From positions 1 to 38,102 of the forward strand of contig QIGL01000034.1 in assembly GCA_003228915.1 (NCBI GenBank): DNA of 38,102 nt. Reading direction: 5' to 3'. A program made the translations under genes and the position numbers. Below the pieces are notes generated by a model. It made no database searches, was not told where the DNA came from, and saw only the letters and a program-made list of their open reading frames with translations. Of this stretch, positions 3,489 through 13,976 are shown one piece after another (within the stretch, counting starts at the first letter, position 1; each line of letters opens with the position of its first letter). This stretch comes from Acidiferrobacteraceae bacterium (lineage in GTDB: Bacteria; Pseudomonadota; Gammaproteobacteria; Acidiferrobacterales; SZUA-150).

Positions 3489-6233
3489 ATGAAAAGCGCC
3501 GAAATCAGACAGCGTTTCCTCGACTATTTTGTCCGTCACGGCCATGAGCTGGTTGCTTCCAGTTCCCTGGTGCCGATTAACGACCCGACACTGTTATTCA
3601 CCAATGCGGGCATGGTCCAGTTTAAAGATGTTTTCCTGGGTCAGGAGCAACGCGCCTATGTTCGGGCGACCAGTTCCCAGCGCTGTGTAAGGGCCGGGGG
3701 CAAACACAATGACCTGGAAAATGTCGGTTATACCGCGCGCCACCATACTTTCTTTGAGATGCTGGGCAACTTCAGTTTTGGCGATTATTTCAAACGTGAA
3801 GCCATCAATTATTCCTGGGAGTTTCTGACCGGGGAGCTCAAGCTAGACCCGGAAAAACTCTGGGTCACTGTTTACAAGGATGATGACGAAGCCGCCGATA
3901 TCTGGCTAAAAGAATTAAAAATAGACCCGGCGCGTTTTTCACGACTGGGCAAAAAAGATAATTTCTGGTCCATGGGAGATGTCGGCCCCTGCGGCCCTTG
4001 TTCGGAAATTTTTTATGATCATGGGCCGAGCATAACCGGTGGCCCGCCCGGGACCCCGGAGGAAGATGGCGATCGTTACGTAGAAATCTGGAACCTGGTT
4101 TTCATGCAATACGATCGTGATAATAATGGCAAGCTCACAGACCTGCCGAAACCCTCCGTTGATACCGGTATGGGCCTGGAAAGGCTGGCCGCTGTTATGC
4201 AGGGCGTACATACAAATTATGAGATTGATTTGTTCCAGGGCCTGATCACAGCGGCTGCAAAACTTTTAAATGTCAATGCGGCCGAGCACAAGGCTCTAAA
4301 TGTGATTGCAGACCACATTCGCTCAGTTGCATTTTTAATTATTGATGGTGTATTTCCGTCTAACGAAGGGCGCGGGTATGTCTTGCGTCGTATTATTCGT
4401 CGGGCAATACGACATGGCCATCACCTGGGCGCCAAGCAAGCATTCTTTTATAAATTAATTCCGGCGCTCATAGCGCAGATGGGCGAGGCCTATCCCGAAC
4501 TGGTGCAATCGCAAAAACAAATCGAGAAAGTGATACGCCAGGAAGAATCTCGTTTTGCCGAAACCCTGGATCACGGCATGGGTATTCTTGAAACCGACAT
4601 CAGTAATTTAAAAGGAAAGATAATTTCAGGCAAAACATTGTTTCAACTTTACGATACTTATGGTTTTCCCGTGGATTTAACGGCAGACATAGCTCGCGAG
4701 AGAAATCTCGAAGTGGACTTGGCCGGCTTCGAAAAAGAAATGGAAAACCAGCGAGCGCGGGCCCGGGCCGCTTCAGGGTTTAAAAGTGAACAATTAACCG
4801 CCCTGGATGAGGGTCGGGAAGATGCCGAATTTACCGGTTATGAAAAACTGCAGGACGAAGCGACAATTTTATCCATACGGGTGGGCGAACACTGGGTGAC
4901 AGAAGCCGGGAAGGGCGATGAAGCCATTGTTTATCTCGATCGAACCCCTTTTTATGCCGAATCCGGTGGCCAGGTGGGTGATCGCGGCGGCCTGGCTGTT
5001 AACGGAAATGAATTTAGCGTCTCCGACACTTTAAAAAATCACGCCCATATCGGCCGGGTGACCAAGGGAACCCTAAAGGTAGGCGAAAAAGTAAATTGTG
5101 CAGTTGATCCTGACAAACGACAAGCCACCGCCCGCAATCATTCTGCTACCCATTTGTTACATGCCGCCTTGAGAAAAGTACTGGGTGATCATGTCAGCCA
5201 AAAAGGATCACTTGTCGATGAAAAACGGCTACGTTTTGATTTCACCCACTTTGAACCGGTGACTGACGAGGAGCTGGTTCGTATTGAAGCATTGGTGAAC
5301 GAAGAAATTCGCAATAAAAATGACGTCAAAACAAATGTTATGGATTATGACGCCGCTGTCAATGCTGGTGCCATGGCCTTGTTTGGGGAGAAGTATGGCG
5401 ACGAGGTACGTGTCGTCGGCATGGGTTCGTTTTCAACCGAACTTTGTGGTGGCACCCATGTACAAAATACAAATGAAATAGCGTTGCTTAAAATAATTTC
5501 GGAAAACGGGGTGGCTGCGGGAGTGCGTCGTATTGAGGCATGTACCGCTGACGGCGTTAATGTTTTTCTGGCGTCAGATCTAAGTGAGTTAGCAGCAAGA
5601 GATTCCCGGTTAATCGATGAAAATAATAATCTTGTAAGTGAAATAAATAATATCGATGCGTCAAGTGCGAATAAAGAACTTGTCAAAGAAAATGCTAATA
5701 GAGATGGTGCTGTAAAATTACCAGGTCTTGATGGTTTATCAGGTGCCGGGTTACTTGAGCAGTACAATAAAGGTAAAGACGAACTGGTCGCAAGTATTGC
5801 TCAAACAACCGAGCACAATAAAAAACTAAAAAAAGAGCTGGATCGGCTGAAACAAAAAAATGCCAGTTCAGCAGGTGATGACCTGGTCGCCAGGGCTACA
5901 GAGATCAGTGGCATCAAGGTCCTGGCCGAAGTGGTCGATGGCGCAGATAACAAATCATTACGAGATACCCTGGATCGTTTAAAAGACAAACTGGGTAAAG
6001 CCGCCATTGTCCTGGCCGCAGTCAATGACGGCAAAGTGACCCTGGTGGCTGGCGTCACCAAAAACCTGGCAGATCAAATACATGCCGGTGAACTGATTAA
6101 ATCCATTGCCGAACAAGTGGGCGGCAAGGGCGGCGGTCGACCGGACATGGCCCAGGCAGGTGGAAATAATCCTGCCAACCTGGCAAGTGCACTGGCAGGT
6201 GTCCCGGAATGGGTGAAGCAGCAGCTCTCCTGA
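3489..6233 (+). CDS. alaS: Alanine--tRNA ligase
   Basis: 914 residues. It charges tRNA-Ala and edits mischarged Ser/Gly. The class II catalytic core is at the N-terminus ([20 protein letters not shown]), followed by the editing domain with zinc ligands HSATH (near residue 551) and CGGTH (Cys653), and the C-Ala domain ([15 protein letters not shown] near the end). E. coli AlaS is 876 residues, yet Cys653 aligns with its Cys666, so the extra length lies after the editing site. About 50 additional residues, rich in Asn, Asp, Ser and Glu, occupy the linker/coiled-coil at about residues 690-760. The coding DNA there (about 5560-5770) is visibly more AT-rich than its flanks. The reading frame is intact and the catalytic and editing residues are present. 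Confidence 0.98.
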
Positions 6234-6375
6234 TAAAATCGGCCAGCCGGCTAGTTTCGATTTAGATTATCTCACTTTTGGGCAGCAACACTTCATTGAA
6301 GGTTTACACACTCTTGTAAAGCAGGTTTAATCAGCCGCGCTTGGTTAAAACAGTTTAAAAAAACAATTTCGTTTA

Positions 6376-7602
6376 ATGTCATTGATTGTACAAAAATACG
6401 GCGGCACTTCTGTCGGCTCGCCTGAAAAAATAGAGGCGGTTGCCGAGAAAATTGCGCACATGCACGGCCAAGGCCACCAACTGGTTGTGGTGGTATCGGC
6501 CATGAGCGGTGAAACCAATCGATTACTAAAGCTGTCAGCCGAAGTGCATGAACAACCTTCTGCCCGGGAGATGGATGTCTTGTTGTCTACCGGCGAACAG
6601 GTAACCATTGCGTTACTATGCATGGCACTTCAAAAAAGAGCCGTCGAGGCGCGTTCCTATACGGGACAGCAAGTCCATATATTGACCAATAATGTCCATG
6701 GCAAGGCCCGTATTCAGAGTATTGAGGCCGACCGTGTCCGCAAAGACCTGGCTAAGGGCCGGGTAGTGGTGATTGCTGGTTTCCAGGGGGTAGATAGCGA
6801 GGGCAATATCACGACCCTGGGAAGAGGCGGCTCTGACACCACTGCTGTCGCCATGGCGGCGACCCTGAGTGCTGATGAATGCCAGATTTATACTGATGTA
6901 GACGGCGTCTATACCACGGATCCACGTATTGTCCCCGAGGCGCGCCGGCTCGATCGCATTACCGTTGAAGAAATGCTGGAGATGTCCAGCCTGGGCGCGA
7001 AAGTGCTACAAATCCGGTCTGTGGAATTTGCCGGGAAATACAAAGTTCCCTTGCGTGTCCTGTCGGCATTCGAGGACGGCCCTGGCACGTTGATTACTTA
7101 TGAGGAAAAAGAAATGGAGCAAGCACAAATTTCCGGAATTGCATTTAATCGTGATGAAGCCAAGCTGACGATACTGGGCGTCCCTGACCAACCCGGTGTG
7201 GCATACAATATCCTGGGCGCCGTTGCCAATGCCGATGTCAACGTGGACATGATTGTGCAAAACGTGGGCGAAGATGGCACCACTAATTTTACATTCACGG
7301 TCCATCGCTCTGAATTTCAGCAGGCGCAAACCATCTTGCAAAAACTGGCCAGGGATCTCAAGGCTCGCGAGGTCTCGGGCGATGACAAGATTGTAAAAAT
7401 TTCGGTCGTGGGTGTCGGCATGCGCTCCCATGCCGGGGTCGCTAGCACTATGTTTAAGGCTCTGGCTGACGAAGGCATCAATATTCAAATGATTTCCACC
7501 TCTGAAATCAAGGTTTCTGTCGTGGTTGATGAGAAATACCTCGAGCTTGGAGTGCGGGCACTGCATACTGCTTTTGAATTGGATCAGGTAGTCGAAAAAT
7601 AA
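6376..7602 (+). CDS. lysC: Aspartate kinase
   Basis: 408 residues, the size of the monofunctional aspartokinase that phosphorylates aspartate at the head of the Lys/Thr/Met pathway. The start VQKYGGTSVGS is the kinase signature; LGRGGSDTTAVAMAA and DVDGVYTTDPR are the core blocks. Two ACT domains follow from about residue 265 (LTILGVPDQPGVAYNILGAV and KISVVGVGMRSHAGVASTMF), the usual site of lysine/threonine feedback. There is no clear Shine-Dalgarno before ATG 6376. Position between alaS and csrA is as in Pseudomonas. Confidence 0.97.
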   Translation: MSLIVQKYGGTSVGSPEKIEAVAEKIAHMHGQGHQLVVVVSAMSGETNRLLKLSAEVHEQPSAREMDVLLSTGEQVTIALLCMALQKRAVEARSYTGQQVHILTNNVHGKARIQSIEADRVRKDLAKGRVVVIAGFQGVDSEGNITTLGRGGSDTTAVAMAATLSADECQIYTDVDGVYTTDPRIVPEARRLDRITVEEMLEMSSLGAKVLQIRSVEFAGKYKVPLRVLSAFEDGPGTLITYEEKEMEQAQISGIAFNRDEAKLTILGVPDQPGVAYNILGAVANADVNVDMIVQNVGEDGTTNFTFTVHRSEFQQAQTILQKLARDLKAREVSGDDKIVKISVVGVGMRSHAGVASTMFKALADEGINIQMISTSEIKVSVVVDEKYLELGVRALHTAFELDQVVEK

Positions 7603-7893: not shown

Positions 7894-8088
7894 ATGCTGA
7901 TTTTAACGAGAAGAATTGGGGAAACGCTCAATATTGGTGACGAGGTCAGAGTCACAGTTCTTGGTGTAAAAGGTAACCAGGTGAGAATAGGGGTAACGGC
8001 TCCCAAGGAAATTCCGGTGCATCGGGAAGAAATCTACGACAGGATCAAAAAAGAGCAAGAAGAAGGCAACTCTGTTCTGGAAAAGTAA
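7894..8088 (+). CDS. csrA: Carbon storage regulator CsrA/RsmA
   Basis: 64 residues; near-identical in pattern to CsrA/Rsm[52 protein letters not shown]. It is a homodimeric RNA-binding protein that blocks or stabilises mRNAs with GGA motifs, controlling carbon metabolism, motility and biofilm. The conserved Leu4 and Arg44-region RNA-binding residues (VHREEI) are present. The Shine-Dalgarno AGGAG (7880-7884) is well placed. The gene is followed by tRNA-Ser and tRNA-Arg, as in E. coli and Pseudomonas. Confidence 0.98.
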
Positions 8089-8150
8089 ATACTGAATACT
8101 TAATCAATAGTTCTGCTTTACCCCGCAAAGCCCAAACGGTATTCTTGCGC

Positions 8151-8164
8151 CGACTGAAAAGTCG
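8151..8164 (+). other. GNRA-type hairpin just before tRNA-Ser
   Basis: CGACT-GAAA-AGTCG is a perfect 5-bp stem with a GAAA tetraloop, ending 5 nt before the mature tRNA. No terminator stands between csrA and the tRNA, so the hairpin would be in a csrA-tRNA precursor. It could be a processing or stabilising element (inference). Confidence 0.35.
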
Positions 8165-8169
8165 AGCCA

Positions 8170-8262
8170 GGAGAGATGGCCGAGCGGCTGAAGGCGCTCC
8201 CCTGCTAAGGGAGTATGGGGTTTATAGCTCCATCGAGGGTTCGAATCCCTCTCTCTCCGCCA
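8170..8262 (+). tRNA. tRNA-Ser(GCT)
   Basis: 93-nt class II tRNA. The acceptor stem GGAGAGA (8170-8176) pairs with TCTCTCC (8252-8258), with discriminator G 8259 and encoded CCA 8260-8262. The anticodon stem CTCCC/GGGAG holds the loop CTGCTAA, anticodon GCT, reading AGC/AGU. A long variable arm follows, then the T arm with GGTTCGAATCC. Equivalent to serV beside csrA in E. coli. Confidence 0.97.
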
Positions 8263-8263
8263 A

Positions 8264-8294
8264 TTAAAAAAGACCCCATCGGGGTCTTTTTTAA
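8264..8294 (+). terminator. Rho-independent terminator after tRNA-Ser
   Basis: Perfect 14-bp inverted repeat: TTAAAAAAGACCCC (8264-8277), loop ATC, GGGGTCTTTTTTAA (8281-8294). It begins 2 nt after the CCA end and has A and T tracts on both sides, so it could act in either direction. Confidence 0.92.
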
Positions 8295-8414
8295 TGATTT
8301 GGGGTTAGTTTAGGCATGAGAACCCGTAGGGAAAGAATCTGCCGCACATGGCAAGGATTGTTCCAGACAATCCTATTGCATATAAAAAGGGCCCCAATCG
8401 GGCCCTTTTTATAT
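8295..8414 (+). ncRNA. Candidate small RNA between the two tRNA genes
   Basis: This stretch lies between the terminator of tRNA-Ser and the promoter of tRNA-Arg, yet it ends in its own strong terminator (8380-8414). It also holds a second perfect hairpin, AGGATTGT (8354-8361), loop TCCAG, ACAATCCT (8367-8374), six bases before the terminator stem. No protein frame explains it. No good promoter was found, so it may instead be residual transcription control or the tail of an antisense transcript. Confidence 0.3.
8380..8414 (+). terminator. Strong hairpin terminator in the tRNA intergenic region
   Basis: Perfect 15-bp stem: ATATAAAAAGGGCCC (8380-8394), loop CAATC, then GGGCCCTTTTTATAT (8400-8414), with a T run on one strand and an A run on the other. 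It comes about 85 bp after the terminator of tRNA-Ser and before the promoter of tRNA-Arg, so it does not belong to either tRNA unit. Confidence 0.85.
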
Positions 8415-8472
8415 AAAGAATTGGCTGAATCTTGCTTTTGGCACCTAAAATGCGAAAGCATACGAACTTTTC

Positions 8473-8501
8473 TTGACACTTCCAGCTTTACTAAGAATAA
8501 T
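8473..8501 (+). promoter_or_regulatory. Promoter of tRNA-Arg
   Basis: TTGACA (8473-8478), 17-bp spacer, AATAAT (8496-8501), 17 bp before the mature tRNA start. Placement and match to the sigma70 consensus are good. Confidence 0.7.
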
Positions 8502-8518
8502 CCACCGCCTTCATTATT

Positions 8519-8595
8519 GCGCCCGTAGCTCAGCTGGATAGAGTACTCGGCTACGAACCGAGCGGTCGGGAGTTCGAATCTCTCCGGGCGCGCCA
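8519..8595 (+). tRNA. tRNA-Arg(ACG)
   Basis: 77 nt. The acceptor stem GCGCCCG (8519-8525) pairs with CGGGCGC (8585-8591), discriminator G 8592, encoded CCA 8593-8595. The anticodon stem CTCGG/CCGAG carries the loop CTACGAA, anticodon ACG (A34 normally becomes inosine to read CGU/C/A). Equivalent to the argV family next to serV in E. coli. Confidence 0.97.
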
Positions 8596-8635
8596 TAAAT
8601 AAAAATGCCCCTATTTAAGGGGCATTTTTATTTAT
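8595..8635 (+). terminator. Rho-independent terminator after tRNA-Arg
   Basis: Perfect 17-bp stem, ATAAATAAAAATGCCCC (8595-8611) with its complement at 8619-8635, and a 7-nt loop. It starts on the last base of the CCA end. Confidence 0.92.
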
Positions 8636-8724
8636 TGTGTTCAGAGTCCTGAGCTCCCGACGAATCAGGATAATAAGCAGGCTCGTACGGTTAGAGTGCG
8701 GCGGTGCAGGCAAGCAAACCTGAG

Positions 8725-9567
8725 TTAGCGCAGAGATTGGGCGGGGACTGCAAATACAAAATAAATAGTATTACCATCAACCATTTTGTTGCCTTCCCAG
8801 CGCCTGGCAACAATTTTACCGCCTGCATCGGTAATCATTTTATCAATATTATGAATCCATGTTTTGTCACTTTCGCGTGTAACTGATGTCTCCAGTTTTG
8901 CATTATCGAGATCGGGGTGTGCCAGGCCTGTAAACGCCAGCATGGTACTCGTGTGATTCATCATTTTTGCTACAAGTTTATTTGCCTGGTCTTGTTTCAA
9001 ATAAAGCAGGATGCCTGCGCCAAAAACTACATCGTATTTTTTATCGCCAATAATATTTTCCAGCGCTTCCATATCGGCATGGATGAGATTTGCTTTTGAT
9101 TTACATGAAGCCAGAAATTCTTTCCCCTGTTCAATGGTGTATTTATCAATATCATTACCGTCTAGCACAGAGGCATTTGGAAAAACATCTGTTTCTATAT
9201 AACGCAGGAGATAACCAAGTGAGCAACCAACATCAAGCACTGATTTTATCTCTGATTCAGGGTTGATGCCTTGTTTTTTTAAGTGCTCCACCAGGTCGGA
9301 TAAAAAGAATTTTCTGGTTTCGTTTAAATTGTCATAACCGAACCTGAGATTAGTTTCGTAACTTTCCGCATAAGAGAGGTGATGGCGCCAGAGAAATTTG
9401 TGGTAGGAGCTGACATCTTTTTCAGCAAAATCAACTATGATCTGGGTTGCCCACCAGCCACGCTTGTCTGAATCCAGCCATGTTTGACGGTTGATCAAAA
9501 TGGCAAGCCACTTGCGAATGGTAAGTGGTATAAAGGCGTAAATCAGTTTCTTCGCGCGTGGCTTCAC
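8725..9567 (-). CDS. Class I SAM-dependent methyltransferase, target unknown
   Basis: 280 residues. The Rossmann methyltransferase core is at about 108-220: motif I SVLDVGCSLGYLL (109-121), the motif II region GNDIDKY (137-143), HADMEAL (163-169) and motif IV DVVFGAGILLYL (179-190). The N-terminal 100 residues are helical and rich in aromatic and basic residues (IYAFIPLTIRKWLAILINR), possibly peripheral to the membrane. The substrate cannot be told from sequence. It is divergent from an ATP-grasp ligase across a 418-bp gap, and both genes are lower in GC than the lysC-csrA region. The two may form a small biosynthetic or modification module (inference). Confidence 0.8.
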   Translation of the reverse strand: MKPRAKKLIYAFIPLTIRKWLAILINRQTWLDSDKRGWWATQIIVDFAEKDVSSYHKFLWRHHLSYAESYETNLRFGYDNLNETRKFFLSDLVEHLKKQGINPESEIKSVLDVGCSLGYLLRYIETDVFPNASVLDGNDIDKYTIEQGKEFLASCKSKANLIHADMEALENIIGDKKYDVVFGAGILLYLKQDQANKLVAKMMNHTSTMLAFTGLAHPDLDNAKLETSVTRESDKTWIHNIDKMITDAGGKIVARRWEGNKMVDGNTIYFVFAVPAQSLR

Positions 9568-9985
9568 AATAATTTTGTCCCTAAAGCGTCACAGATGATG
9601 TAGAAAAGTAAGCACAGCTAGCGAGAAACTTTACCATGCGTGTTCTAATATCACCATGATTATTCATTAGTTGCTGGATACTCACGCGAGGCATGGAGTG
9701 GACGATATTTTTTTGATTTCGACAGCGATCAATAATAACATCAAACCAATAATTAATTATTATCAAAAGACAGAGAAAATACATGATAAGTGTTTACACC
9801 TAAATTATATTGCCCAAAGGTATTTTCACCAGTTTATGACGTGATCAATGCGGGGTTGTCAGGTTTGGCATAGTTATAAAAATTGGCATCAGGCCAGATT
9901 CAGACTATACATAACAATGCGTTATAAAGTTTTAGAAAAAGAAAAAATTTAATCAACAGGAAATAATAAACACATTAGGTAACAT
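9568..9985. other. AT-rich intergenic region between divergent methyltransferase and ATP-grasp genes
   Basis: No convincing gene. It holds an AT palindrome AATAATTAATTATT (9748-9761), a probable promoter for the ATP-grasp gene (TTGGCA 9883-9888, 17 bp, TATACA 9906-9911) and a short Shine-Dalgarno, AGGT (9977-9980). A minus-strand open frame (9581-9784) has a composition that looks non-coding. Confidence 0.5.
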
Positions 9986-11086
9986 ATGGCAACGAATCAC
10001 AAGCTTGGCATTGGACTGCGCATATTAAAAATTTATTATTTATTGCGCCGCCTGTTCCGGAGAATTACCGGAACAGAAAAAACTACATATGTATGGACTC
10101 GCACCGAAGGTTACAAAAAAGCATGGCAGACAGCCGCTGATGAAATTGGCGCCGATCTGAAAGAGCTTTATACCGGTATCTGGGAAGTCAGTAAGGGTAA
10201 TAAATCAACACGGACTTGTTTGCATCTTACGGAGTTCGATAACCCGGTCACTTTAAAAATTGCCGGCAATAAACCCTTGAGTTATCAGTTAATGGCAGAC
10301 AAAGGCGTGCCAGTTCCCGCACACATGAATTTTAATTTGAATGAGCTTGATAAAGTAAAACAGTTCATGATGGACAACACCGGAATGGTTGTGGTTAAGC
10401 CATCAAGTGGTACGTCATCAGGCATGGGTGTGACCACACATATTAAGACCATTAGTGAGGCTCGTCGTGCTGCGGTGCTGGCTGCCAGTTATGGCAAGGA
10501 ATTATTAATAGAGCGCCTTGTGCCTGGAGAAGTTTATCGTTTACTTTTTCTGGGCGGTGAAATGTTGCATGCCTCTCGACGCAATGGCATGAAAATTACA
10601 GGAGATGGACAATCCACTGTAGTACAATTATTTGATAAGGAGAACGAACGTCGCGGGCGGGGTGGTGAAGGCGCGCGCCAGGTCGTTGGCAAGGATCGTG
10701 ATTATGAAGCTACACTGGAAGCACAGAACCTGGAGGAGCGCTCGGTGTTAGCAGAAGGCCAGACAGTATTGGTTAAATCTGTGGATGCCCCATTATTTGA
10801 TAATGAGGAGATTCGAACTGTTTACGATGAAAATGCCACGAATGATATTTGTGATGCTATACGTGAAAGTTCGCGACTTGCATGCGAGGCCGTACACTCT
10901 GAATTTACCGGTGTTGATATCATTACGATGGACCCAACGGTGTCACTTGCAGTAAGCGGTGGCGTTATTGGTGAAATTAATACTACGCCGGGTTTACATC
11001 ACCACCACAATTTGCGTAATGATCCTGAAAAGCCATATGCGTGGATGAAAACACTGCAATATTTGCTGGATAAATCTCCTTACTGA
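9986..11086 (+). CDS. ATP-grasp ligase, cyanophycin-synthetase-like
   Basis: 366 residues. It resembles the central ATP-grasp domain of cyanophycin synthetase (CphA) without the Mur-ligase half. Visible parts: an entry helix pair (NKPLSYQLMADKGVPVPAH, 95-113), the ATP-binding lysine and glycine-rich loop VVVKPSSGTSSGMGVT (135-150), LLIERLVPGEVYRLLFLGG (173-191), the CphA-type block ITGDGQSTVVQLFDKEN (204-220), and metal-binding residues in FTGVDIITMD (307-316) and GEINTTPGLHHHH (329-341). ATP-grasp ligases join a carboxylate to an amine through an acyl-phosphate. The N-terminus is strongly basic and hydrophobic (LRILKIYYLLRRLFRR), suggesting membrane association. The substrate is unknown; the divergent methyltransferase is a possible partner. 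Confidence 0.75.
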   Translation: MATNHKLGIGLRILKIYYLLRRLFRRITGTEKTTYVWTRTEGYKKAWQTAADEIGADLKELYTGIWEVSKGNKSTRTCLHLTEFDNPVTLKIAGNKPLSYQLMADKGVPVPAHMNFNLNELDKVKQFMMDNTGMVVVKPSSGTSSGMGVTTHIKTISEARRAAVLAASYGKELLIERLVPGEVYRLLFLGGEMLHASRRNGMKITGDGQSTVVQLFDKENERRGRGGEGARQVVGKDRDYEATLEAQNLEERSVLAEGQTVLVKSVDAPLFDNEEIRTVYDENATNDICDAIRESSRLACEAVHSEFTGVDIITMDPTVSLAVSGGVIGEINTTPGLHHHHNLRNDPEKPYAWMKTLQYLLDKSPY

Positions 11087-11110
11087 TTTTTTAATTATAC
11101 GACCATTTTT

Positions 11111-11298
11111 GTCGACTTCAGTATTTACTTCATTTTAGGGAGCATTGCCGGTGCTATGTTATAGCAGCTGCGCTGGATGCGTTGCCTGCACTAAAAAGTG
11201 ATATTAATACTGCAATCAATCTCTTTGGTTTTGAAAGTGAAATCGACTTTGCAATTTCTGACTACCATGACATAAATCCTGACAGGTCAGCATGTTAA
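11111..11298 (+). pseudogene. Broken fragment resembling the LarC (nickel insertion) N-terminus
   Basis: One frame reads GSIAGAML then stops (TAG at 11160-11162). Shifted by one base, the neighbouring frame continues VIAAALDALPALKSDINTAI and NLFGFESEIDFAISDYHD before TAA 11296-11298. Joined, this resembles the N-terminal pattern of proteobacterial LarC/DUF111 proteins (GGIAGDM-x-AA-x-LDA-P-L). The usual first residues are altered and nothing after about residue 60 is recognisable. It appears to be a decayed, frameshifted remnant in the 371-bp gap between the ATP-grasp gene and the membrane protein gene. The match is from memory of the family, so it is tentative. Confidence 0.4.
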
Positions 11299-11457
11299 TT
11301 ACTGCTAACCCAGGCATAGTTGCACGATGTTTTTTAGACAAGTTATTCGATGGTATACTCACCGCCGTACCGGCAGCTGGTGGTTGCGGAGTCTATGCCG
11401 GTGGTAAAACGGCTTTAAATGCAATACATTGTTGTAACAGGGAGACAGGAGTAAGTA
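11299..11457. other. Remainder of the gap before the membrane protein gene
   Basis: A short frame starting at 11292 runs through here but looks non-coding. The only clear signal is the Shine-Dalgarno AGGAG (11447-11451) for the GTG start at 11458. Short GC-rich repeats of GCCGGT/ACCGGC at about 11369-11402 could fold. Confidence 0.4.
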
Positions 11458-12426
11458 GTGTTTTATTTATTAAAGATTTTCGTATTTTTAGTCAGTGTTG
11501 TCGCCGCAGCCGGTGGCGCTTACCATCTTATATTTTTTAAAAGTGAGAATATATACACTAGTTTTTGGTATGGCGTGGCAATCATGCTCGTATTCTCTGG
11601 CCTTGTTTACTTATGGTTCAGTCTGTACCGAAAACATAAAGCAAATAATAGTTGGGACGTAAGGCTGCGGTTTTTAGGTTATTTTGTCACAGGGCTGCCT
11701 GCACTTATTTATATTCTGATTGTTGTCCAGCAAACCTACCACCTGGTACAGGCTAAAATTTTTATAAGCCAAACAGTCATCAGTGAATATCAGGAGCAAC
11801 CAATAATATGGCAGGGTTTCGACAGCCCGGTTGGAATCAGGATTTCTCTAACACTGGATTATCCACTGGTACTTCCTGGCTACATGCGCTATCCAAAGCT
11901 GGTGATGGGCAAGATGGGATCAGAAATTCCCGCTGATCTTGATAGCGCATACTGGAAATATTGTAGCGAGCCTGTGGTGGATGAAAGCAGTTGCCTGACT
12001 ACCCCAATCTGGCCGGTGAAAGATTTTCCAGTGTTGCCTGAAGATTCTCCTGCAGTGTTATCTTTTGATTTGTTTCCATCCAATCTTTACTACATGGAAA
12101 ATGAAAACAGGGTGTGCCTGAAAAAACGCAACCCGTATTCAGAGGTCAGTTTTGTTGGTCTCGACAAAATAGTCCTTTGGCACTTTCTTGGTAATGAGCA
12201 TAAACTGGAACTGACTGACATGATCACCACTACTGTCAGAGAAAAATCAATACTCCTGAAAGATATAGACCTGGTCCAGAAAATGTACCGCAATGCTGAG
12301 TCTGGTGCTTTTCTTGCGGCAGGCTACCAGGGCTGTGAAATCAAGCGAGCCATCCCTTTTGCCAGTGAAAGCGAATGTTTTTGCAAAGAAAGTACTGAAA
12401 ATAACAAACCAAAAGCGTTAGAGTAG
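11458..12426 (+). CDS. Hypothetical membrane protein with three N-terminal helices, upstream of the kinase
   Basis: 322 residues, not recognised. It starts at GTG 11458, supported by AGGAG 6 nt upstream. Three hydrophobic helices lie at about 1-25, 33-55 and 70-92 (the last LGYFVTGLPALIYILIVVQQ). A soluble domain of about 230 residues follows, with WQGFDSPVGIRISLTLDYPL and several cysteines (CSEP, SSCL, RVCL, GCEI, ECFC), which suggests a folded extracytoplasmic domain if topology places it outside. The Ser/Thr kinase gene begins 32 bp after its stop, so the two are very likely co-transcribed. The protein could be a sensor, anchor or substrate of that kinase (inference). Confidence 0.7.
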   Translation: MFYLLKIFVFLVSVVAAAGGAYHLIFFKSENIYTSFWYGVAIMLVFSGLVYLWFSLYRKHKANNSWDVRLRFLGYFVTGLPALIYILIVVQQTYHLVQAKIFISQTVISEYQEQPIIWQGFDSPVGIRISLTLDYPLVLPGYMRYPKLVMGKMGSEIPADLDSAYWKYCSEPVVDESSCLTTPIWPVKDFPVLPEDSPAVLSFDLFPSNLYYMENENRVCLKKRNPYSEVSFVGLDKIVLWHFLGNEHKLELTDMITTTVREKSILLKDIDLVQKMYRNAESGAFLAAGYQGCEIKRAIPFASESECFCKESTENNKPKALE

Positions 12427-12458
12427 CCAGACAGGAAAAAATAACCGGATAATCAAAA

Positions 12459-13976
12459 ATGGCGCAGGCATATCATCATGCATTGGAACCCGGTACTCGA
12501 ATTGAGAATTTTGAGGTTAAGGGCGTGCTTGGTGTTGGTGGTTTCGGTATTACTTACAAAGGGTACGATCATAGCCTTCATTGTGATGTTGCTATTAAAG
12601 AATACCTTCCCAATGAGCTGGCCCTGCGAACAAAAGACGGCAGCACAGTTGTCCCAAAATCAAACAATGATAAAAAAAGTTACGAGTATGGCCTGAAGCG
12701 CTTTCTTGATGAGGCGCGGACACTGGCTATGTTTCGTGAACCAAACATTGTCCGTGTTACCAGGTTTTTGGAATCTAATGGCACCGCCTACCTGGTAATG
12801 GATTATGAGGATGGCCAGTCACTATCACAGTTCTTGCACAATCGCGATAAATTAACAGAAGATCAAATCCGGGCAATTTTTATCCCATTGCTCAACAGCC
12901 TGCGTAGTGTTCATGCTAAAAATTATTTGCACCGCGACATTAAACCAGCAAATATTTATCTACGAAAAGCGGGGTCTCCGGTTTTGCTGGATTTTGGTGC
13001 CGCCCGTGCCGCCCTTGGTGGCCAGACCAAAACTATAACCGGTATGGTCACACCGGGCTACGCACCTTTTGAACAGTATCATACCCGGGTACGACAGGGT
13101 CCCTGGACGGACCTTTATGCAATGGGCGCAACTATCTATCGTTGCATAACTGGTAATACCCCTGTTGATGCAACTGAAAGGGTGGCTGCGCTTCATGAAG
13201 GGGATCAGGATCCACTGGTAGCTGCATCACTTATATGCCACGGAAAATATTCACAGTCGTTGCTTGAGATGGTGGACTGGATGCTCAAGCCCAACGCCAA
13301 GGACAGGCCCCAGGATGTACGGGATGTACTTGTAAAATTACTTGATACATTAAAAGGGGATGGTGACGGCAAAGACACAAATGATGTAATAGAAGCGCTC
13401 GAGAAAACAATGGCGATTGATTCATCGACGGGTGAACCATCTGTCATGATTGATGATCATAGTACGTCCGATCAAATTAAAGCTGCAGAACTAACAAAAA
13501 GAATCGCCAAAGAAGGAGATTCCCTGGCACAGTTAAAAATGAGCGCCATGTATGCACGAGGTCGGGGTGTCACCAAAAATACCGAAGAGGCGGCTAACTG
13601 GTGCCAAAAAGCCGCACAACAAGGCAATGCCCTTGCCCAGTATAAGCTTGCCATGTTGTATGCACATGGTTATGGCATGGATCAAAATAAAATGGAGGCT
13701 TACCGGTGGTGCAAATTAGCGGCAGATCAGGGTAACGCGCCTGCCCAGTTTAATCTTGGTCTTATGCTGGGCCATGGCATTGGTACAGAAAAGAATAGTA
13801 CGGCGGCAGCACTCTGGTATAAAAAAGCTGCGGAGCAGGGGCACATGGATGCAAGAAACAACCTTAGTGTCGCAAGTGTTCAAGGCGGTAAAAATACCGG
13901 GATCAGGATTTCTGCATTTATTATTTTGCTTTTAGGTGTGCTGGCAACAGGTTATTATATATATAACTATAAGTAA
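12459..13976 (+). CDS. Serine/threonine protein kinase with Sel1 repeats and C-terminal membrane anchor
   Basis: 505 residues. The Hanks-type kinase domain spans about 18-290: glycine loop GVGGFG (25-30), ATP lysine in VAIKEYLP (Lys47), catalytic loop HRDIKPAN (158-165), DFGAA (178-182), and the activation segment TPGYAPFEQY (198-207), all intact. A linker follows, then about three Sel1 repeats (about 345-470) with patterns such as AQLKMSAMYARGRGV and AQYKLAMLYAHGYGM, which normally bind proteins. One hydrophobic helix lies near 483-501 and then YNYK, so the kinase and repeats should face the cytoplasm on a tail anchor. It is paired with the unknown membrane protein just upstream. Substrates cannot be told from sequence. 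Confidence 0.92.
   Translation: MAQAYHHALEPGTRIENFEVKGVLGVGGFGITYKGYDHSLHCDVAIKEYLPNELALRTKDGSTVVPKSNNDKKSYEYGLKRFLDEARTLAMFREPNIVRVTRFLESNGTAYLVMDYEDGQSLSQFLHNRDKLTEDQIRAIFIPLLNSLRSVHAKNYLHRDIKPANIYLRKAGSPVLLDFGAARAALGGQTKTITGMVTPGYAPFEQYHTRVRQGPWTDLYAMGATIYRCITGNTPVDATERVAALHEGDQDPLVAASLICHGKYSQSLLEMVDWMLKPNAKDRPQDVRDVLVKLLDTLKGDGDGKDTNDVIEALEKTMAIDSSTGEPSVMIDDHSTSDQIKAAELTKRIAKEGDSLAQLKMSAMYARGRGVTKNTEEAANWCQKAAQQGNALAQYKLAMLYAHGYGMDQNKMEAYRWCKLAADQGNAPAQFNLGLMLGHGIGTEKNSTAAALWYKKAAEQGHMDARNNLSVASVQGGKNTGIRISAFIILLLGVLATGYYIYNYK

Follow-up and report, generated by a model that had tools for sequence, protein, structure and literature searches.

Very probable origin of an ATP-grasp ligase and methyltransferase gene pair of an Acidiferrobacteraceae bacterium in a nickel-pincer-nucleotide operon

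Layout and conservation of the locus

The window, by which we mean the whole stretch of 38,102 nucleotides analysed from an Acidiferrobacteraceae bacterium (genome G000), carries two divergent and intact open reading frames encoding a methyltransferase and an ATP-grasp ligase, with decayed pieces of two further genes downstream from the ligase gene (Table 1). A previous sequence-only reading had proposed two divergent genes for enzymes of these kinds, and their positions, orientation and nature all held. It had also described them as genes of lower GC content that sit alone, and neither statement could be upheld. The GC content of the ligase gene is 45.0%, against a window mean of 45.5%, and that of the methyltransferase gene (41.6%) lies inside the spread of the window genes, low GC being confined to the intergenic stretch (33%). 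As for the isolation of the pair, the scar of a lar operon at 11135-11426 had been missed. Upstream of the ligase gene, promoter-like matches in the intergenic region remained at chance level, and searches of this region for remnants of LarA, LarB, LarC or LarE gave scores equal to those of shuffled sequences.

Table 1. Features of the ligase-methyltransferase locus (positions in the window)
Feature	Position	Strand	Basis or remark
tRNA-Ser and tRNA-Arg	8170-8595		
SAM-dependent methyltransferase, 280 aa, GTG start, basic N-terminus	8725..9567	-	Pfam Methyltransf_25
Divergent intergenic region, 418 bp	9568..9985	.	no LarA remnant detectable
Stand-alone CphA-type ATP-grasp ligase, 366 aa, basic amphipathic N-terminus, clade-specific DNEEIRTVYDE loop	9986..11086	+	
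Decayed larC N-terminus: LGSIAGAM, frameshift, IAAALDALPALKSDINTAI...	11135..11271	+	shuffle-tested score
Decayed larB C-terminus LFDGILTAVPAAGGCGVYAGGKTALNAI	11343..11426	+	tblastn, shuffle-tested score

Comparison of G000 with a sister species of the same genus (G001) gave dN/dS values of 0.064/0.738 and 0.052/0.568 for the two genes, each about 0.09, the values of the neighbouring genes being similar or slightly lower. Both are therefore real and functional genes under purifying selection. Farther downstream, the window encodes a 322 aa membrane protein without family and an adjoining Ser/Thr kinase with Sel1 repeats (11458-13976), both of which are conserved in the sister species and have a low dN/dS.

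The two enzymes and their distribution

The best sequence matches of the ligase are the ATP-grasp domains of cyanophycin synthetase and of N-acetylglutaminylglutamine (NAGGN) synthetase. The cyanophycin synthetase models (134-141 bits, cutoffs 850-877) are matched from about 185 to 454 of 862-871 positions, that is over the ATP-grasp part only, so that the protein has neither the Mur-ligase domain nor the N-terminal domain of CphA; the NAGGN synthetase model gave 103.5 bits for a cutoff of 569, without the GNAT region. Residues K96, K138, E176, D311, E330 and N332 are conserved with CphA, GshAB and NAGGN synthetase, and the ligase thus keeps the ATP-binding Lys and the metal-binding Asp, Glu and Asn of the ATP-grasp superfamily. 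It shares these catalytic positions with CphA (7lgm, 7lg5), from which it differs in its domain content, its substrate loops and its place in a separate clade; with NAGGN synthetase and GshAB it likewise has a related ATP-grasp domain in common, but not their fused GNAT or glutamate-cysteine ligase domain, nor their clade. The basic N-terminus LKIYYLLRRLFRR has a hydrophobic moment of 0.67 and a charge of +5, which places it in the top 0.06% of window segments. Both the CphA pattern without Mur-ligase domain and the amphipathic N-terminus, as first read from the sequence, are in agreement with these data. Basic amphipathic segments are also present in the methyltransferase and in the LarA proteins described below, and this suggests that all three proteins may act at the membrane surface. 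AlphaFold models built from two-sequence alignments had a pLDDT of 34 for the ligase and the methyltransferase alike.

In phylogenetic analysis, four ligases of lar type form one clade (support 100/99), whose sister clade (99/97) consists of six ligases from other gammaproteobacteria and from one genome outside the class. The two clades are separate from CphA, GshAB and NAGGN synthetase (100/100), and a constraint grouping the ligase with CphA was rejected (p-AU 5.7e-5). The ligase is thus not within any clade of known function, an outcome on which the earlier reading had made its proposal depend. The sister-clade ligases adjoin an RraA-like aldolase, a second ATP-grasp protein and often a malate/lactate dehydrogenase, with polysaccharide genes nearby; their setting is one of polysaccharide loci that contain hydroxy-acid enzymes. 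Clusters of the RraA-like aldolase, the CphA-like ATP-grasp and the second ATP-grasp lie at L032 6201-10274, L033 1763-5856, L034 4580-7798, L016 2-2998 and L044 5837-9903; a malate/lactate dehydrogenase belongs to those of L032, L033 and L044 and is missing from the stretch covered for L016 and L034, and polysaccharide genes are found near those of L032 and L044. A more distant stand-alone CphA-like ATP-grasp, on a Legionella adelaidensis plasmid (L058, 2920-6849), has as neighbours an aldolase, a dehydrogenase of isocitrate/isopropylmalate type and RraA.

These results bear on the idea, put forward in the earlier reading, that the pair makes a soluble product of peptide, osmolyte or storage type, such as an NAGGN-like dipeptide, a cyanophycin-like polymer or a polyamine conjugate. 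The identity of the top ligase matches speaks in its favour, but the separate clade and the rejected CphA grouping, the lack of a fused Mur-ligase or GNAT domain, and the presence of relatives in polysaccharide loci do not. Moreover, where CphA has the loop TANLSTGGT, the ligase has DNEEIRTVYDE and an insertion of six residues, and PGLHHH stands in place of PGFRMH. We therefore consider a soluble product unlikely.

The methyltransferase matches Pfam Methyltransf_25 (PF13649; E 2.6e-9, 38.1 bits for a cutoff of 27) and reached none of the equivalog models; by its sequence, it is a class I SAM enzyme. Among 96 relatives searched for both genes, it was found in the sister species (91% identity) and, within an intact lar operon, in a genome of another order (G091, 57%). 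The ligase was found in the same two genomes (88%, at the same locus, and 55%), with a weaker match of 31% in G003. When the sample was widened to 369 genomes of the class, G000 and G091 alone had the lar-type ligase, and these two alone also had the methyltransferase (Fisher p 1.5e-5, a statistic that ignores phylogenetic kinship). The distant, RraA-associated ligase type accounts for two genera with three further genes, in G122, G212 and G356. In one scan of contigs, the sole genome returned was that of the sister species, and plasmid searches with both proteins gave no matches. The pair is thus linked in relatives, as anticipated, and the description of the locus as an uncharacterised module is supported, in that it is a genuine linked unit whose ligase stands outside the clades of known function. 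Since few genomes carry the family, the co-occurrence may however reflect shared inheritance of one unit.

Intact lar operons and the scar in the window genus

LarB, LarE and LarC make the nickel-pincer nucleotide (NPN) cofactor of LarA. Complete lar operons that include the same ATP-grasp gene, in the arrangement larA(-larA)-ATP-grasp-larC-larE-larB, are found in two genomes from another order. In G091, the genes for LarA, LarA, ligase, LarC, LarE, LarB and methyltransferase follow one another on one strand; LarC (196 bits), LarE (249 bits) and LarB (252 bits) all score above their NCBIfam cutoffs, and both LarA proteins score above the Pfam Lar_N cutoff. In G424, tblastn detected LarA, ligase, LarC, LarE and LarB (50-67% identity) before the end of the contig, and no methyltransferase was found in this genome. 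In G423, LarC-LarE-LarB is followed by the same downstream neighbour as in G091, with no methyltransferase between, and in G422 the methyltransferase and a G091-type flank stand at a contig end. G091 therefore has the only complete operon that contains the methyltransferase, and this gene, absent after larB in G423 and not found in G424, is a frequent but not an obligatory member of the lar operon.

Equivalents of Asp72, Arg75, His108, Lys184, His200 and Lys298 are present in all three LarA proteins encoded by the intact operons, but Gln occupies the position of the second catalytic His (His174) in each of them, so that only one of the two catalytic His is retained. The Gln-LarA motif YPQ[HN]TTGF, together with a basic amphipathic C-terminal insertion, is seen in L012 (G091:C85, 301-3082) and L037 (G424:C477, 215-1648). 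As in lactate racemase operons, where LarA occurs with LarB, LarC and LarE (PMC7583248, PMC11770544), the G091 and G424 operons combine LarA homologues with the full NPN set, above curated cutoffs in G091; they differ by the ATP-grasp ligase, by the methyltransferase in G091 and by the Gln at His174. LarA homologues without His174 are known, their function being unknown (PMC7583248), they include Asn variants (PMC12611868), and they are suspected of catalysing a reaction other than simple racemization (PMC7583248, PMC12611868). The single-histidine homologues with Asn at His174 (PMC12611868) have also lost the second catalytic His and kept the first, but the proteins described here carry Gln rather than Asn and resemble LarA/Mar2 (112 bits) far more than they do the Asn branch (45 bits). 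In the open-access papers searched, we found no description of a Gln-variant LarA or of a ligase-containing lar operon, and none of them names both lactate racemase and ATP-grasp.

In the window genome, no LarA homologue with Lar_N accompanies the ligase, as one does in G091 and G424. The 371 bp that follow the ligase gene contain no gene but decayed pieces of LarC and LarB in operon order. The LarB piece (tblastn E 2e-5, 61% identity) scored 83 against 29±4 for shuffled sequences, a value reached by 0 of 300 shuffles and about 15 standard deviations away; the LarC piece, weak alone, scored 41-44 against 30±4 (7/300 and 1/300). At the same place in G001, a LarC fragment scored 49-51 (0/300) and a LarB fragment, NAILTSSVPGISVMNIDNGYGAA, which extends further, scored 106 (0/300). 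A genome-wide search of G001 with the LarB HMM recovered this scar (C11:19985-20056), the deletions of which are independent of those in G000. Neither of the two genomes encodes LarA or LarC anywhere, and, apart from the scar, LarB is represented only by PurE-like paralogues below the cutoff. As the two assemblies are 96% and 90% complete, absence of LarA and LarC from both by chance is unlikely, and without LarA the window holds a remnant only.

The intact operons elsewhere and the LarB and LarC scars behind the ligase gene thus identify the pair as what is left of an NPN operon, and we are confident that it derives from a lar operon. This origin, overlooked in the sequence-only reading, explains the source of the two genes and narrows their possible function. 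The simplest history is one in which larA disappeared and the larC-larE-larB stretch collapsed through internal deletion; the same rearrangement would have carried the methyltransferase gene across to the opposite side of the ligase gene.

Such a collapse could also have left two functionally unrelated neighbours that now have separate roles, as the methyltransferase is missing from some lar operons and its G423 copy lies in an exopolysaccharide locus instead. However, the two genes have stayed adjacent in two species after a rearrangement that inverted one relative to the other, both are constrained, and the same two of 369 genomes carry both; separate roles are thus improbable in our view. 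A role of the pair in modifying not the racemase product but the LarA protein or the NPN cofactor, which might for instance be amidated or methylated, would fit the presence of both genes inside the cofactor operon of G091, but it is largely refuted and was rejected as very unlikely, because both genes persist under purifying selection in G000 and G001, where, with LarA and LarC lost and LarB reduced to a scar, no NPN is expected, and because the sister-clade ligase loci have no lar genes. To our knowledge, the known lar operons function without such a ligase or methyltransferase.

Surface-glycan loci and possible function of the pair

No glycan gene adjoins the window locus itself. One further methyltransferase paralogue (47-50% identity) is present in each of G000, G001 and G091, and the paralogues in exopolysaccharide loci have as neighbours glycosyltransferases, the sulfolactate enzymes ComA and ComB or MBOAT/SGNH genes. 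In G000 and G001, the paralogue sits between a UDP-sugar dehydrogenase gene and an ATP-grasp-ComB-ComA-glycosyltransferase run. For the G001 paralogue (L014, G001:C20, 4975-5826), the genome search reports one in-frame TAG, yet a 283-aa open frame is listed. By percent identity, the G423 methyltransferase, whose gene adjoins MBOAT and SGNH-like genes, comes nearest to the lar-type copies, but the tree does not place it firmly; the SGNH-like label comes from reading the sequence, and no Pfam family was matched. The ComA-ComB-ATP-grasp triplet also occurs in G091 and G422, where the surrounding loci include MBOAT, SGNH-like, O-antigen-ligase-like and glycosyltransferase genes, and its conservation suggests sulfolactate as a glycan decoration. 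The triplets of the exopolysaccharide loci are at L013 (G000:C20) 9637-13419, L066 (G091:C12) 4687-7467 and L067 (G422:C176) 8004-10804. The UDP-sugar dehydrogenase, ComA/ComB and MBOAT/SGNH genes of these loci connect the methyltransferase family with surface glycans and with the chemistry of hydroxy acids. A literature search for ligases of sulfolactate or of hydroxy acids within polysaccharide loci returned nothing usable. A functional precedent is the C-terminal domain of Cj1438, which catalyses the ATP-dependent amidation of capsular glucuronate (PMC11800397): there too an amide-forming enzyme acts on a polysaccharide of the cell surface, and sugar methylation belongs to the same system, although the acid, the amine and the genes differ and the likeness drawn here is one of function.

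The pair probably attaches an organic acid, whose identity is putative, to a cell-surface molecule and methylates it. Of the membrane-bound ligase and methyltransferase first imagined to build or cap a peptide-like or polyamine product, the membrane association remains plausible given the amphipathic segments, whereas the product is less likely, as the status of the two genes as accessory members of a lar operon points to alpha-hydroxy acids rather than to polyamines or peptides. At the expense of ATP, the ligase would convert the carboxylate of a 2-hydroxy acid, or of a related one, into an acyl phosphate and then couple the acid, as an amide, to an amino group of a membrane- or lipid-linked precursor, a surface-glycan precursor being the most likely. 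The conjugate would next be methylated by the methyltransferase, probably at the hydroxyl of the acid. LarA, where present, would set or invert the stereochemistry of the acid. In the window genus, where ligase and methyltransferase have stayed adjacent and under purifying selection while larA was lost and larC-larE-larB was reduced to a scar, this step would now be dispensable, for instance if the acid came by another route. From gene context, we propose only tentatively that an alpha-hydroxy acid is joined as an amide to a precursor of the membrane or of a surface glycan and the product then methylated, a scheme in which substrate, amine acceptor and direction of the bond are putative; taken with these hedges, the combined statement of a lar-operon origin and a hydroxy-acid decoration seems to us evenly poised. 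It is possible, though doubtful, that these genes represent an undescribed pathway in which a single-histidine nickel-pincer enzyme of Gln-LarA type, a CphA-type ligase and a methyltransferase decorate a surface glycan or lipid with the methylated amide of a hydroxy acid whose stereochemistry has been edited, and of which the window genus would have dropped the nickel step and kept the other two enzymes. Many LarA homologues are without known substrate, and the partner ligase and methyltransferase offer a concrete class of candidate products for them; the window genome, in which the partners are kept without the nickel enzyme, constitutes a natural experiment.
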